Assembly (NCBI GenBank): GCA_947460825.1
Contig: CANHHA010000014.1
Location: 1-64,000, forward strand
Source of the DNA: Flavobacteriales bacterium
Lineage (GTDB): Bacteria > Bacteroidota > Bacteroidia > Flavobacteriales_D > Crocinitomicaceae
Direction of reading: 5' to 3'
Length of the DNA stretch: 64,000 bases
The notes under the pieces are model-generated. The model was not told where the DNA came from and searched no databases. It worked only from the letters and a program-made list of their open reading frames with translations. Of this stretch, positions 12,069-31,780 are shown one piece after another. Position numbers and translations under genes: made by a program. Each line of letters opens with the position of its first letter. The first letter of the stretch is position 1.

Positions 12069-12623
12069 ATGGAATTAGAAATCATTAAAAACAGCATCCA
12101 CGAAATACGAGGCCTTAAAGTAATTCTTGATTTTGAATTAGCGAAAATGTATCAAGTTGAAACAAAACGATTAAAAGAATCCGTAAGAAGAAATTCACGT
12201 CGTTTCCCCGTAGATTTCATGTTTGAACTGACGCAAGAAGAGTGGACCAACTTGAGGTCGCAAATTGCGACCTCAAGTTGGGGAGGCAAGCGTTATCCTC
12301 CATTTGCTTTTACCGAACAAGGTATTGCAATGTTATCGAGCGTTTTGAATTCAGAGGTTGCGATTGATGTTAACATCTCCATCATGCGCGCTTTCGTGAT
12401 GATGCGGCAATGGGCCATGAACCATCAAGAATTGAGTGAAAAACTCACCGCGCTAGAACAGCAATACGGTCAAAAATTCAAAGATATCGAATGCTGACGA
12501 TAAATGTCAGCACCTTGAAAGGCATCGCCTCGTCAAGGCTACTGACTTAATTATTTGATAAAAAAACTCCATCAAAAATCAATACAACAAGCCGCACGGA
12601 AGGAAATTGGTTTTAAAAAATAA
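12069..12623 (+). pseudogene. ORF6N-domain protein, interrupted by a small hairpin-rich insertion
   Basis: The intact part (12069-12497, 142 codons) is a typical ORF6N domain, a DNA-binding domain of phage and accessory proteins: it begins with IHEIRGLKVILDFELA and contains RFPVDFMFELT and FAFTEQGIAMLS. It stops right after KFKDIEC. The expected family tail (LNYLIKKLHQ to RKEIGFKK) is present in the same frame at 12546-12623. The intervening 54 bases (12492-12545) contain three in-frame stops and two hairpins, TGCTGAC/GTCAGCA and CCTTGA/TCAAGG. The simplest reading is an in-frame insertion of a mini-palindromic element into a once ~170-residue gene. The truncated protein keeps the whole ORF6N domain and may still be made. 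Confidence 0.8.
12492..12545. mobile_element. Candidate ~51-54 bp palindromic insertion (REP-like)
   Basis: Two adjacent perfect hairpins (TGCTGAC-gataaat-GTCAGCA, then CCTTGA...TCAAGG) interrupt the ORF6N gene without changing its frame. No transposase is nearby, so if mobile it would be non-autonomous. The borders are estimated to within a codon from the expected protein. Confidence 0.5.
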
Positions 12624-27767: not shown

Positions 27768-29642
27768 ATGATTTCACTCGAAAAACTTGGTTATTTTCTT
27801 CCGCAAGGGTTCCTTTTCTCTGATGTTAGCCTGCAAATTAATCGCGGAGATAAAATTGGATTAGTAGGAAAAAATGGGGCAGGGAAATCCACCATGCTTC
27901 GCTTATTAACGGGACAAACACAACCCTCGGAGGGTAGGATTCACCTGCCAAAAGAGATGAAAATGGGGATGCTATCCCAGGACATAAAAATAAACACTTC
28001 CAAATCGGTGTTTGAGTATTTAGTTACTTCTAACCTTGTTCTTACACAACTGAATGAGAAAATCGAACAAATCAACGAAGCCTTAACCACACGAACAGAC
28101 TACGAATCCGATTCTTATTTAGCCTTACTCGATGAATTGTCGGACTGCAACCAATCCTTTCAAATACACGATGGGTATAATTGGGAAGAAAAAATCATGG
28201 CTATATTGGAGGGCCTCGGATTTGATAAAGAAGAAGTTCATCGTCCCTTGGATACCTTCTCAGGGGGTTGGAAAATGCGTGCAGAACTCGCGCGAATCCT
28301 AGTGAATGAGCCCGATGCACTGTTGTTGGATGAACCAACAAATCACCTAGATATTCTCTCTATTGCATGGTTGGAACAATATCTTCAGCGCTTTACCGGA
28401 GCAGTAATACTGATTTCCCACGACCGTTTATTCTTGGATAATGTTACGAAACGAACGTTGGACATTAGCATGGGAAGGGTATTGGATTTTCCATTTGGAT
28501 TCTCAAAATATAAGGAACGTCGTGAAGAAGATACGGAGCGCCTGGAGCAAGCCAAGAAGCAACAAGATAAAGACATCAAGCAAACCGAAATGTTGATTGA
28601 AAAATTCCGCGCGAAGCAATCAAAAGCGTCTTTTGCTCAATCCTTAATAAAAAAACTAGACCGGACAGAACGCATTGAAATTGAACGCGATAATTACGGG
28701 GGAATGCGGGTGCGCTTTCCACTCAGCGTGCAACCGGGAAAATGGGTACTCAACATGGAAGGTGTTGGTAAAACCTACGAAAAAAATCTGTTCCATTCGG
28801 TATCTATTTCCGTTGGACGTGGTGAGAAAATCGCACTCTTAGGACCAAACGGTGTGGGTAAATCTACACTACTCAAAATCATGATGAATCAAATCACCTA
28901 TGATGGAACTATGGAATACGGACATAACGTTGGAATTGGGTATTTCGCTCAGGACCAAGCGGAACAATTGGACCCCAGCTTAACAATATTTGAGACCGTA
29001 GATCATGTGGCGAAAGGAGAAATTCGTCAACAAATCCGAAGCCTACTTGGAACCTTCCTATTCAGTGGAGAGGACACCCAAAAGAAAGTCGGTGTACTCT
29101 CCGGTGGGGAAAGAACAAGGCTCGCGTTGTGTCAGATGCTATTAAGTCCTTCGAATTTTTTAATCCTAGATGAGCCGACAAATCACCTGGATATTCCATC
29201 AAAGGAGATATTAAAGAATGCGTTATTGAATTACGAAGGAACCTTCTTAATTGTATCTCACGACCGGGAGTTCTTAGAAGGATTAACCAACCGGATCTGG
29301 GATATTGAGGAGCGACAATTAAAAATTCATCACTTTAAATTAGATGAATACCTGAAATACAAGGCCCCAAAAGAAACTAAATCGTTAGAAAAAAAGGTTG
29401 TTGAAGTGGAAAAAATTCAAGAGGCACCAAAGGCAGAGCGAATTGATCGTGAACTACAAAAAAAGCTTCAAAAAGTAGAGCGAAACATTGAAGAAACAGA
29501 AGGTAAAATCGCAACCCTTGAAGCCCAATTAGCAGACATCACGTACAACGACCCTTCCTACCATGCCTTGTTGAATGAATATAACACGCTTAAAGCTAAT
29601 CTTGCCGTATTAATGGAAGCGTGGGAAGCGCTAGCGGAATAG
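27768..29642 (+). CDS. ABC-F family ATPase
   Basis: 624 residues from the ATG at 27768 (MISLEKLGYF). Two ATP-binding domains on one chain: Walker A GKNGAGKST and GPNGVGKST, signatures FSGGWKMRAELAR and LSGGERTRLALC, Walker B LLLDEPTNHLD and FLILDEPTNHLD. Between them is a long Lys/Glu/Gln-rich coiled-coil linker, and the last ~90 residues form another coiled coil, as in Uup/YdiF-type proteins. ABC-F proteins act on the ribosome, not in transport; this type is housekeeping rather than a clear resistance factor. Confidence 0.92.
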   Translation: MISLEKLGYFLPQGFLFSDVSLQINRGDKIGLVGKNGAGKSTMLRLLTGQTQPSEGRIHLPKEMKMGMLSQDIKINTSKSVFEYLVTSNLVLTQLNEKIEQINEALTTRTDYESDSYLALLDELSDCNQSFQIHDGYNWEEKIMAILEGLGFDKEEVHRPLDTFSGGWKMRAELARILVNEPDALLLDEPTNHLDILSIAWLEQYLQRFTGAVILISHDRLFLDNVTKRTLDISMGRVLDFPFGFSKYKERREEDTERLEQAKKQQDKDIKQTEMLIEKFRAKQSKASFAQSLIKKLDRTERIEIERDNYGGMRVRFPLSVQPGKWVLNMEGVGKTYEKNLFHSVSISVGRGEKIALLGPNGVGKSTLLKIMMNQITYDGTMEYGHNVGIGYFAQDQAEQLDPSLTIFETVDHVAKGEIRQQIRSLLGTFLFSGEDTQKKVGVLSGGERTRLALCQMLLSPSNFLILDEPTNHLDIPSKEILKNALLNYEGTFLIVSHDREFLEGLTNRIWDIEERQLKIHHFKLDEYLKYKAPKETKSLEKKVVEVEKIQEAPKAERIDRELQKKLQKVERNIEETEGKIATLEAQLADITYNDPSYHALLNEYNTLKANLAVLMEAWEALAE

Positions 29643-29754
29643 GAGAAGCGGCCCTTCGATACGTCCTTTGGACAACTCAGGGACCGCATAATCGTAAAGG
29701 TCAGGGACCGCTTTAACTGAAATAAATGAATTATTGTGCGTTGCCTGAGTCCGC

Positions 29755-29816
29755 TCCGCCAAGGCGGATCAAAGGGCGCACAAATCACAACAAGATCTCC
29801 GACCCCAGCGGGGTCG
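29755..29816. repeat. REP-like palindromes downstream of the ABC-F gene
   Basis: TCCGCC-aa-GGCGGA (29755-29768) and CGACCCC-agc-GGGGTCG (29800-29816) are perfect hairpins. The second has the same stem as hairpins in the 299-bp repeats at 30.4-31.0 kb with a different loop triplet. They lie in the 187-base gap between convergent genes. The earlier part of that gap also holds a 'cagggaccgc' doublet of the same repeat type. Confidence 0.85.
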
Positions 29817-29829
29817 CACATTCCGATAA

Positions 29830-30360
29830 TTACAACATCTTAACCCATTGCTTCCCATGGCGGTGATGAATAGCATATGCGGTTAAATCAAAAGCGAATA
29901 AAAAGGACCCTTGAAGGATTAATCCGTTTCCAAAACCGTTTAATTGGTCAGCTTTGGCTTGATTGTTAAGCGCCATACTGCGCAATAAAAACCCAGCGGT
30001 CATATAAGCAACATCCAAACCAGTATTAAACAAAAAGATCCGCTCCGTTTTCTGTTGTTCAGATAAGGTTTGTGACAAACTGAGTACTGCTTTTGTATTG
30101 CGAGCCCGCAAATATCCCGGAACGGCTAAGCCTAAATTCACGGCATTCCACATGACATTCATTTGATGAAATGCTTTAAGTTCGGGTTGCTGAGCCGTGG
30201 CCCAGCCTATACTTCCTGCAGTAATATTTGCTCCTGCCCATGTACCTAAGCTTAGCATTAATCGTTGATCCCGTTTCAGGCGTGCTTGATTAAAAACTGT
30301 TAGGTCTTGCGCATGTAAAGCGAACGCGGCAAGGAAGAAGGTAAAAAAGATCAGTTTCAT
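29830..30360 (-). CDS. Hypothetical membrane protein
   Basis: 176 residues from the ATG at 30360, giving a signal peptide (MKLIFFTFFLAAFALHAQ). Upstream codons to 30432 come from the repeat sequence and are not likely coding. The mature part has hydrophobic segments (WAGANITAGSIGWA, MWNAVNLGLAVPGYL, FLFNTGLDVAYMTAGFLL, LILQGSFLFAFDLTAYAI), so about four membrane helices or an integral-membrane domain. It may belong to the DUF6992 group, but I am not certain. Function unknown. Confidence 0.65.
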   Translation of the reverse strand: MKLIFFTFFLAAFALHAQDLTVFNQARLKRDQRLMLSLGTWAGANITAGSIGWATAQQPELKAFHQMNVMWNAVNLGLAVPGYLRARNTKAVLSLSQTLSEQQKTERIFLFNTGLDVAYMTAGFLLRSMALNNQAKADQLNGFGNGLILQGSFLFAFDLTAYAIHHRHGKQWVKML

Positions 30361-30413
30361 GGAGCTTAAACAAGGAATAACCAATTTAGTTTGATGAAAA
30401 CGCAGTAAGTAAG

Positions 30414-30712
30414 CTGATTCCAGAGGAATCAAATATCTTACCTCAAACCCTGATCAAAAACAACTCGACCCCAAAGGGGTCGCACAACAACCTAACAACA
30501 TATTCGACCCCGCTGGGGTCGCTTGATTACCACATCACTTGAGCAAGAATATGCGATTCCGATGGAATCGGATTAGCAAGAGTTAGCTGCGTTCTGAGCA
30601 CCCTCCGCCTAGGCGGAGATGCGTCCTTCGGTCCGCGGGGGCGGACTCAGGATGCGGTAAATAGAAAAAATATACTTTTTTCCACGTTCCAAGGGGGAAG
30701 TCAATACTACCT
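30414..30712. repeat. 299-bp tandem repeat, copy 1, with six hairpins
   Basis: The unit begins with TGATTCC-aga-GGAATCA (30415) and contains CGACCCC-aaa-GGGGTCG (30466), CGACCCC-gct-GGGGTCG (30505), CGATTCC-gat-GGAATCG (30554), the 14-base palindrome TCCGCCTAGGCGGA (30604) and GTCCGC-gggg-GCGGAC (30631). The first four all have 7-bp stems and 3-nt loops. The last two lie in a larger imperfect inverted repeat (about 30588-30658). Copy 2 follows directly, about 95% identical by eye. Confidence 0.9.
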
Positions 30713-31011
30713 CTGATTCCAGAGGAATCAAATATCTTACCTCAAACCCTGATCAAAAATAACTCGACCCCAAAGGGGTCGCACAACAACCTAACAACAT
30801 ATTCGACCCCGCTGGGGTCGCTTGATTACCACATCACCAGAGCAATAATGTGCGATTCCGATGGAATCGGATTAGCAAGAGTTAGCTGCGTTCTGAGCAC
30901 CCTCCACCTAGGCGGAGATGCGTCCTTCGGTCCGCGGGGGCGGACTCAGGATGCGGGAAATACAAAAAACATACTTATCTCCATATTCCAAGGGGGAAGT
31001 CAGAACCAACT
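30713..31011. repeat. 299-bp tandem repeat, copy 2
   Basis: Repeats copy 1 with scattered substitutions, for example cCACCTAGGCGG breaks the 14-base palindrome and aataatgtgcg replaces aagaatatgcg. The 17-nt hairpins are all intact, which suggests that they, rather than the spacers, are conserved. Confidence 0.9.
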
Positions 31012-31063
31012 CTAAATAGCCATAATCGACATTGAAAGTAAATCAAACACATTTAATCTAATG

Positions 31064-31336
31064 TTACCCGAATCTTCTGGCTTTTCGTCGTTTGTCGTGT
31101 CGCATGCGACGGTTGTCTTTTTTCATGGCTTTTCGCATGGGTTTTGACTGGTTTTTCAGGTGTATTTTGTAGGATTTTTCTACCATTCGTTTTCTGCGTT
31201 TTTCCTCTTTGTGGTGTTTTTTCCATTGAGTCGCCCGTAGTTTTTCAAACGATCCCTTTGGACCAGCTTTGCATGCTACCAAAATAATCAAGCAAACCAT
31301 GACTAATTGTTGCCACGTGAAGTTAATTAATCGCAT
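31064..31336 (-). CDS. Small basic lipoprotein
   Basis: 90 residues from the ATG at 31336. A signal peptide ends in a lipobox (LIILVAC, Cys at ~22). The mature part is almost wholly Lys, Arg, His and Met (KKHHKEEKRRKRMVEK, MRKAMKKDNRRMRHDKRRK). Such a highly cationic tail tethered to a membrane could contact nucleic acid, LPS or teichoic-like polymers, but that is inference. It is divergent from the Rieske-like lipoprotein, with 18 bases between starts. Confidence 0.65.
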   Translation of the reverse strand: MRLINFTWQQLVMVCLIILVACKAGPKGSFEKLRATQWKKHHKEEKRRKRMVEKSYKIHLKNQSKPMRKAMKKDNRRMRHDKRRKARRFG

Positions 31337-31342
31337 TATTAC

Positions 31343-31350
31343 TACCTTTG
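31343..31350 (+). promoter_or_regulatory. -7 promoter box (TACCTTTG)
   Basis: TACCTTTG matches TAnnTTTG and ends 4 bases before the ATG at 31355. Confidence 0.5.
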
Positions 31351-31354
31351 ATCC

Positions 31355-31780
31355 ATGTTTCAACGTGGATTATTTGTTTTAGTTACCTTACTATCAGTGC
31401 TTTCCTGTGGGAAAAACAATCAGAATCCAGTACCCAACGTACCGGTAGATGTTACCATTGATCTTGGTTTTCCGAGTTACAGCGCACTTCAAGGGGTAAG
31501 TGGGTACACCTATGTGAATGGCGGATCACGAGGAATTATCGTTTACCGAAAATCTTTGAATGAATTTGTGGCCTTCGATCGACATTCGCCCGCAGATGTT
31601 GAAGGCACCTGTGTAGAACCACTCTATCCTGACGCTAACAACTTTTTAGAATTAATTGATTCGTGCAATAACGCCAGTTTTTCATTGTACGATGGTTCAC
31701 CCATTAGCAATTCGCAATATGGATTGAGGCAATACGCTACACAATTTAACGGATCAAACATCCTTCGCATTTTTAACTGA
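31355..31780 (+). CDS. Rieske-fold-like lipoprotein lacking cluster ligands
   Basis: 141 residues with a lipoprotein signal (lipobox VLSC near residue 18). The rest resembles small Bacteroidota Rieske-type lipoproteins: GGSRGIIVYRKSLNEFVAFDRHSP, ...DSCNNASFSLYDGSPIS and a C-terminal LRQYATQFNGSNILRI. The paired Cys-x-His and Cys-x2-His ligands are not intact: only single cysteines remain (GTC, DSC). It probably keeps the fold without the 2Fe-2S cluster. A ferredoxin gene follows after one base, so an electron-transfer context is possible. Confidence 0.6.
   Translation: MFQRGLFVLVTLLSVLSCGKNNQNPVPNVPVDVTIDLGFPSYSALQGVSGYTYVNGGSRGIIVYRKSLNEFVAFDRHSPADVEGTCVEPLYPDANNFLELIDSCNNASFSLYDGSPISNSQYGLRQYATQFNGSNILRIFN

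Follow-up and report, generated by a model that had tools for sequence, protein, structure and literature searches.

The 64,000-nucleotide stretch of a Flavobacteriales bacterium analysed here (assembly GCA_947460825.1, contig CANHHA010000014.1, positions 1 to 64,000; hereafter the window) carries at 30414-31011 a tandemly duplicated, hairpin-rich element. Its core is probably a non-autonomous repeat resembling the bacterial interspersed mosaic elements (BIMEs), and it is probably handled by an IS200-type Y1 enzyme from a clade with the signature motif of TnpAY1 subclass 1.2.

Sequence analysis revealed that the element consists of two head-to-tail 299-bp units at 30414-30712 and 30713-31011, which share 94% identity; a preliminary description had rightly claimed the tandem duplication. 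Each unit contains four perfect hairpins with 7-bp stems and 3-nt loops (7-3-7) and two further palindromes. In unit 1, hairpin 1 (HP1, TGATTCC-AGA-GGAATCA, 30415-30431) and HP2 (CGACCCC-AAA-GGGGTCG, 30466-30482) lie on the minus strand, and HP3 (CGACCCC-GCT-GGGGTCG, 30505-30521) and HP4 (CGATTCC-GAT-GGAATCG, 30554-30570) on the plus strand, with spacings of 51, 39 and 49. Their counterparts in unit 2, at 30714-30730, 30765-30781, 30804-30820 and 30853-30869, have the same strands; the stems had been listed correctly for both copies. Of the 17 positions at which the two units differ, none lies in the four hairpins, which together cover 68 nt (P = 0.011 for an even spread). One of the differences breaks an arm of the fifth palindrome, CTCCGCCTAGGCGGAG (30603-30618; 7-bp stem, 2-nt loop; a member of another repeat family), whose mutated arm in unit 2 (30902-30917) reads CTCCACC. 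Thus, the assertion that the hairpins stay intact between the copies holds for the four 7-3-7 hairpins and fails for this palindrome. The sixth palindrome, GTCCGCGGGGGCGGAC, is of the 6-4-6 type and lies at 30631-30646 and 30930-30945. With up to two mismatches allowed, the window contains CGACCCCNNNGGGGTCG five times, compared with 0.06 in shuffles, and CGATTCCNNNGGAATCG four times, compared with 0.21.

The repeating part of the unit is its first ~157 bp, from HP1 to HP4, and this core (156-158 nt; 30414-30571 and 30713-30870) is dispersed. A one-unit query yielded 22 matches in the host genome (G000; 2.66 Mb, 73 contigs). Nine full-length core copies, some with a decayed hairpin, are present in this genome and two in its sister genome G007, while G329 has at least four near-full-length matches; partial copies also occur and often retain HP3-HP4. 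The remainder of the 299 bp is made of other repeats, the CCGCC part of which is also found on contigs C12, C15 and C27. When minority letters were counted over 11 core copies, per column and sequence, the stems gave 0.015, the loops 0.114 and the spacers 0.107, the stems being about sevenfold less variable than the other two.

Hairpins of the class GA[CT][CT]CC/GG[AG][AG]TC with a 3-nt loop (GAYYCC-N3-GGRRTC) number 94 in the host genome, compared with one site for the reversed-pattern control. The preliminary description had proposed to count the stems genome-wide, naming their occurrence nowhere else as a point against its own reading; this count removes that objection. Many short palindromes per genome are typical of repetitive extragenic palindromes (REPs) and BIMEs, and since REPs usually exceed 100 copies per genome (PMC2817692), 94 sites fall at the low end of the REP range. 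On contigs C9, C20 and C50, hairpin arrays reach within 70 bp of the contig end, which suggests that the assembly broke at these repeats; copy numbers may therefore be lower bounds. The sites are nearly all extragenic: of the 94, 73 were covered by this test, and 72 of these lie outside closed open reading frames (ORFs) of 150 or more residues, ORFs running off a locus being excluded, and the sole exception is HP1 of the window, which falls inside a TTG-start extension of the neighbouring gene at 29833-30360.

By stem type, the genome holds 22 CGACCCC (control 0), 29 GATTCC and 39 GACTCC sites, with four sites assigned to no type; at least 90 of the 94 are Watson-Crick palindromes, though the pattern permits mismatched middles. 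In the fetched loci, part of which were chosen for holding a perfect hairpin, all 73 sites pair, with middles CC in 22, TT in 26 and CT in 25 and no G-T pair. The compensating changes that had been suggested for inspection are thus seen between stem classes. This compensation is visible between hairpins and not within one, because the stem at a given hairpin position hardly changes, and it may partly reflect recent amplification from a small number of ancestors. The absence of G-T wobble at the two variable pairs is as expected for a constraint at the DNA level or on both strands. One array (G000:C7:25661-26311) mixes GACTCC and GACCCC stems; another (G000:C34:27302-27765) comprises nine GACTCC hairpins, mostly exactly 50 bp apart, on a contig that yielded no Y1 gene.

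The hairpins are also asymmetric. A flank-motif search with free orientation over 13 family groups recovered a one-sided motif ending A-T-[AG]-T-[GT]-[CT] before GA; it scored 77.0, whereas 40 permutations averaged 35.9 and reached at most 38.3. A strict foot, T[AG]T[GT]N, which was chosen from the same data on which it was counted, stands on exactly one side of 64 of 133 hairpins and on both sides of none (expectation 9.1, maximum 17 in 200 shuffles). It marks 25 of 30 hairpins in three core loci of the host genome and 39 of 103 in other loci, and is absent from L180 (0/7) and L159 (0/3). All nine hairpins of the window carry exactly one foot. In both units the feet lie right, right, left and left, giving the order < < > >, a head-to-head, BIME-like arrangement; the orientation of HP3 is taken from the strict foot, the long motif model having placed it the opposite way. 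Asymmetric repeats, opposed orientation and regular spacing are accordingly all present, as in REP/BIME systems. For GT[AG]G, the foot typical of classical REPs, there is no enrichment: it accompanies 6 of the 133 hairpins, where shuffled flanks give an expectation of 8.7.

The host genome has four Y1 (PF01797) genes, all different. One of them, on contig C7 (G000:C7:62940-63404), sits inside GACTCC arrays, with 14 hairpins within 700 bp. Its 155-residue protein carries DHIH, WQ and YIENQKHHH and lacks the Y---NP motif of TnpAREP class 2. It scores 75 bits against the IS200 model NF033573 (cut-off 55) and fails the REP-associated tyrosine transposase (RAYT) model NF047646 (24.9 bits, cut-off 80). 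The proteins encoded on C53 and C2 likewise pass the NCBIfam IS200 cut-off and fail the REP-transposase model, which only the C27 protein passes. Among solved structures, the nearest in sequence include 2xm3 and 2a6m, the latter the ISHp608 transposase. The Y---Q--HH signature of subclass 1.2 is found in 62 of 64 C7 homologues and in 80 of 80 C53-family proteins, and by this motif the C7 clade enzyme is a candidate member of TnpAY1 subclass 1.2. Table 1 of PMC6006769 (Quentin et al. 2018) lists this subclass as REP 'no' and generally without terminal hairpins; however, both the C7 clade and the C53 family are strongly hairpin-flanked. A literature search that was thin on subscription journals and covered no supplements found nothing linking subclass 1.2 enzymes to repeats.

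A comparison across 399 genomes of the order took in all 64 matches to the C7 protein at E up to 1e-40, together with their flanks. GA-type hairpins number 101 in these loci, compared with 1.5 expected. Loci with at least two hairpins make up 3 of 3 at 90% or more identity to C7, 6 of 8 at 60-90%, 2 of 13 at 55-60%, 4 of 19 at 50-55% and 0 of 21 at 40-50%. In the tree, at least two hairpins accompany 14 of the 17 loci of one clade (support 98/98), compared with 1 of 47 outside it, and a second tree with six more genes retains the clade (98). Beside the clade genes the stems vary by species (GACTCC, GACCCC, GATCCC, GACTTC, GAATCC and GACCCA), two stems often standing beside one gene (L157, L216, L165, L166/L171); in L157 and L216 these are GACTCC and GACCCC. 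CGACCCC hairpins in particular adjoin clade genes in G114, G384, G039, G153, G284 and G025. The organisation of a REPtron, a cognate Y1 gene flanked by repeats, is thus found for the hairpin class in 14 of 17 clade loci; for the exact GACCCC/GATTCC core, no such arrangement with the clade gene was seen in the host genome. As to the preliminary description, its composite REP/BIME-like element is upheld by the dispersed copies, the paired changes, the opposed halves and the Y1 gene flanked by the same class. The REP-associated transposase that it proposed to look for turned out to be an IS200-type enzyme with the subclass 1.2 signature rather than a classical one, and the GTAG foot is unenriched.

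Several observations weigh against assigning the core to this clade. The GA class was defined after the first 30 of the 64 loci had been seen, and of the 34 fetched later only two have at least two hairpins, L216 within the clade and L223 outside it. One clade locus, L235, has no hairpin at all, and L160 and L217 have fewer than two, both on cut contigs, L217 showing one CGACCCC at the contig end. The strict foot is sparse in the C7-type arrays of this genus (1/14 in L153, 5/12 in L154, 1/11 in L155). The C7 gene's own hairpins are GACTCC with a strict foot in 1 of 14, so that its product is no more than a candidate enzyme for GACCCC/GATTCC. Within 1 kb of window-type core copies in the host genome, a single Y1 gene was seen, that on C53, which belongs to a different family generally flanked by other stems; a partial core copy lies 136 bp after its stop. 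Among the 399 genomes, 11 have ten or more pattern matches, in counts that include mismatched chance sites. A clade gene is present in five of these (G000, G007, G329, G384 and G039), and none was found in the other six (G306, G319, G341, G361, G266 and G086). G306 (53 matches), G319 (33), G361 (11) and G374 (7) each have a single, C2-like Y1 gene, which lies outside the clade and has no such hairpins adjoining. G341 (17 matches) has six Y1 matches, one C2-like and one C53-like, both outside the clade, and four unplaced; no Y1 gene was found in G266 (12), G086 (11) or G310 (5). A hidden clade gene, predicted for hairpin-rich genomes, was seen in none of the ten tried; G097 has one divergent, unplaced Y1 gene, and none was found in G186. 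Clade genes may be missing from the assemblies, some clusters of the host genome being at contig ends. The driver of the GACCCC/GATTCC class in this genome may be the C7 gene or a lost or unassembled relative.

The C53 gene had been considered as a partner enzyme given the partial core past its stop, and was dropped since its homologues carry other stems (CGATGGG, CATAGGG). Its family was taken as the best 80 of 119 matches, mostly Bacteroidota records with a few others. Within 300 bp of the genes, 128 hairpins of 7 or more bp were counted at 62 of the 80 loci (5.0 expected), compared with three at 1000-1500 bp; these hairpins might be IS (insertion sequence) ends. The genes (L073-L152; in records labelled Bacteroidota, Ignavibacteria and Methylococcaceae) are mostly flanked by CGATGGG..CCCATCG and ACATAGGG..CCCTATGT, with loops of 3-5 nt; individual stems were listed for 22 of the 80 loci, and the count took in all 80. 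Directly upstream of the C53 gene itself is a tandem array of ~24-bp GCGCCCCTTCAGGGCTAACGGATT repeats (L021:1540-1800). The remaining two Y1 genes have palindromes of their own. The C2 gene (L060:1470-2030; G000:C2:96469-97029), encoding an IS200-type protein of 124 residues, is flanked by long perfect palindromes with 14-17 bp arms around TTAA (CCTGGGTGTGGGTTTAAACCCACACCCAGG type). The REP-transposase-type gene on C27 (L059:833-1507; G000:C27:35832-36506; 189 residues, motif YIHNNP) has on one side ATACCCGGGATTTCAAATCCCGGGTAT and a palindrome with 20-bp arms, unrelated to the window hairpins.

Core copies come and go between sister genomes. The orthologous locus was found by means of the neighbouring 176-residue gene at 29833-30360 (minus strand). 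Read by eye, this locus holds two units in the host genome, one in G007 and a decayed solo HP1 in G266 and G001, and no recognisable element was seen in G204 and G213. In the gap at the opposite end of this gene, HP3-HP4 is present in G007 and a decayed HP4 in G266, while the host genome has one hairpin (CGACCCC-AGC-GGGGTCG, 29800-29816, minus strand). That hairpin, which the preliminary description had rightly placed near 29800, lies between this gene and a convergent ABC-F-like gene. A second array, on contig C63 beside a common right flank, is matched by G266 and G329 and half matched by G007; G001, G004, G250, G213 and G204 match the right flank only, and in most relatives the left flank was not found beside it. 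In G077 both flanks are present at 82% identity with 175 nt between them, compared with 514 in the host genome, and no core. This boundary is not clean, because the rest of the gap differs too and other repeats fill it. No insertion with clean boundaries was captured at the window and C63 loci, which also counts against mobility.

A second repeat family, CTCCGCC/GGCGGAG (GCACCCTTCGATACG...CTCAGGGTGC), adjoins several hairpin cores and is found in the window at 29744-29790 and 30603-30660. It also occurs in the C63 gap of G077 (L258), where the host genome holds a core, and may be a common landing site. Elsewhere in the window, an isolated perfect palindrome with 16-bp arms, CCAACTTGAGGTCGCAAATTGCGACCTCAAGTTGG, lies at 12247-12281, and a similar GTCGCAA..TTGCGAC palindrome is present at L019:1545.

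The polymorphism of these loci bears on the idea that the core is a passive BIME-like repeat which is no longer mobile, spread by recombination and tandem duplication, with the gene association as a relic. Such a history fits the decay seen at the window locus of G266 and G001 and the hairpin-bearing genomes in which no clade gene was detected. It is nevertheless rather unlikely, given that the stems are far more conserved than the spacers in the 11 core copies and that the copy state of loci differs among sister genomes. Alternatively, the hairpins could be decayed remnants or ends of an IS200-like insertion sequence and no independent repeat, as the match of related genes to the IS200 transposase model and the palindromic ends that border IS200/IS605 elements (PMC8266576) might indicate. 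We consider this very unlikely: the four Y1 genes of the host genome are all different and no second copy of any was found, compared with 94 hairpins, and the 157-nt core is too short for a gene and has internal spacers common to its copies. Moreover, the hairpins form multi-copy arrays instead of standing one per end, and no multi-copy transposase between hairpin ends, the hallmark of IS200/IS605, was found.

A role at the transcript level had also been suggested by the preliminary description; in this view the hairpins would be retained because they terminate (or attenuate) transcripts from one strand or stabilise their 3' ends. The duplicated element occupies the gap between two minus-strand genes, the one at 29833-30360 and a small one at 31064-31363, whose stop codon borders the intergenic region. 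A terminator scan returned nine sites in the window against 2.1 in shuffles; five of the nine correspond to the present hairpins, read on the minus strand and followed by T-rich tails (AGTTATTTTT, for example). When a loose T-rich tail was scored in the 11 core copies, it followed HP3 in 9 of 9, HP2 in 6 of 9 and HP4 in 4 of 10 on one strand, and 1 of 29 on the other. Since loose tails are mostly kept on one strand, a transcript role retains some weight against mobilisation by an enzyme. However, a run of four T is scarce (HP3 3/9, HP2 4/9, HP4 0/10), the T-rich sequence that follows HP3 complements the foot of that hairpin, and the copies have a common descent. The lack of G-T wobble in the 73 sites speaks against it as well, no Rfam family reaches its gathering score, and the association with a transposase clade is left unexplained. 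A structured RNA was likewise dismissed: the only Rfam match with E<=1 in 29400-31500 has 17 bits (gathering 86) and lies at 30240-30398, outside the units. Selection for termination thus appears an unlikely explanation of the whole, although the terminator-like sites and one-sided tails stand.

We therefore return to the BIME-like repeat handled by a Y1 enzyme and compare it with known systems. Like E. coli REP/BIME with TnpAREP (RAYT), it comprises short, extragenic, asymmetric and opposed palindromes in many copies, several per array, and a cognate-type Y1 gene embedded in arrays; unlike that system, its stems are perfect 7-3-7 pairings without a bulge, a GT[AG]G foot is unenriched and its enzyme scores as IS200. 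It does not belong to the GTAG REP/TnpAREP family, because foot and enzyme class both fail. With subclass 1.2 (PMC6006769) it shares the signature and the occurrence in Bacteroidota, and departs from the published account in the hairpin-flanked C7 clade and C53 family. CGTC-tagged REPs, also reported from Bacteroidetes, are short palindromes too, with an unpaired CGTC tag, 4-5 nt loops and no dedicated transposase (PMC3733652); in the hairpins described here the listed feet have the form T[AG]T[GT]N, most loops measure 3 nt and the repeat accompanies a Y1 clade. IS200/IS605 elements likewise combine a hairpin that bears a 5' guide-like foot with a Y1 enzyme of this class, but the present repeat is without a transposase and a one-per-end layout, and the gene is single-copy. 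Subclass 2.6 enzymes of Bacteroidetes, with 'atypical secondary structures' and a YIH[QN]NP motif (PMC6006769), are similar in the non-GTAG hairpins around a Y1 gene; the enzyme class differs here, and it is the C27 gene of the host genome that has YIHNNP.

These features enable us to propose a putative model, in which mobilisation, strand preference and cutting are modelled on the biochemistry of IS200/IS605 and TnpAREP (partly PMC8266576). An HuH/Y1 enzyme of the clade would bind each foot with its hairpin while the DNA is single-stranded, as on the lagging-strand template, cut it there, and copy or move groups of hairpins to new extragenic sites; the genes for enzymes of this clade are themselves embedded in arrays of this hairpin class. 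The 299-bp duplication would have arisen later, by tandem duplication of a core together with an unrelated flanking palindrome. This hairpin type flanks an IS200-like clade listed as without repeats; the core thus has the look of a repeat that moves passively, carried by an enzyme of a kind not expected in this role. A broader proposal, which we advance tentatively and hold somewhat less probable than its contrary, is that IS200-type Y1 enzymes of subclass 1.2 are as a rule host-tied and REP-like, each subfamily with its own hairpin repeat. In the C7 clade, recognition would then use the one-sided foot and the constant GA..TC stem base, with the middle of the stem changing in pairs.

In summary, little is understood of how the widespread REP elements of bacteria propagate (PMC8266576), and the 17 clade genes together with their several stem types form a natural set for testing what such an enzyme reads. 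If the broader proposal is true, the partnership of REP and transposase would have had a second, independent origin, from the IS200 side and not the TnpAREP side. If IS200-class enzymes did gain REP-like repeats independently, the step from a selfish insertion sequence to a domesticated enzyme with repeats dispersed in the genome would have occurred more than once and could be compared.
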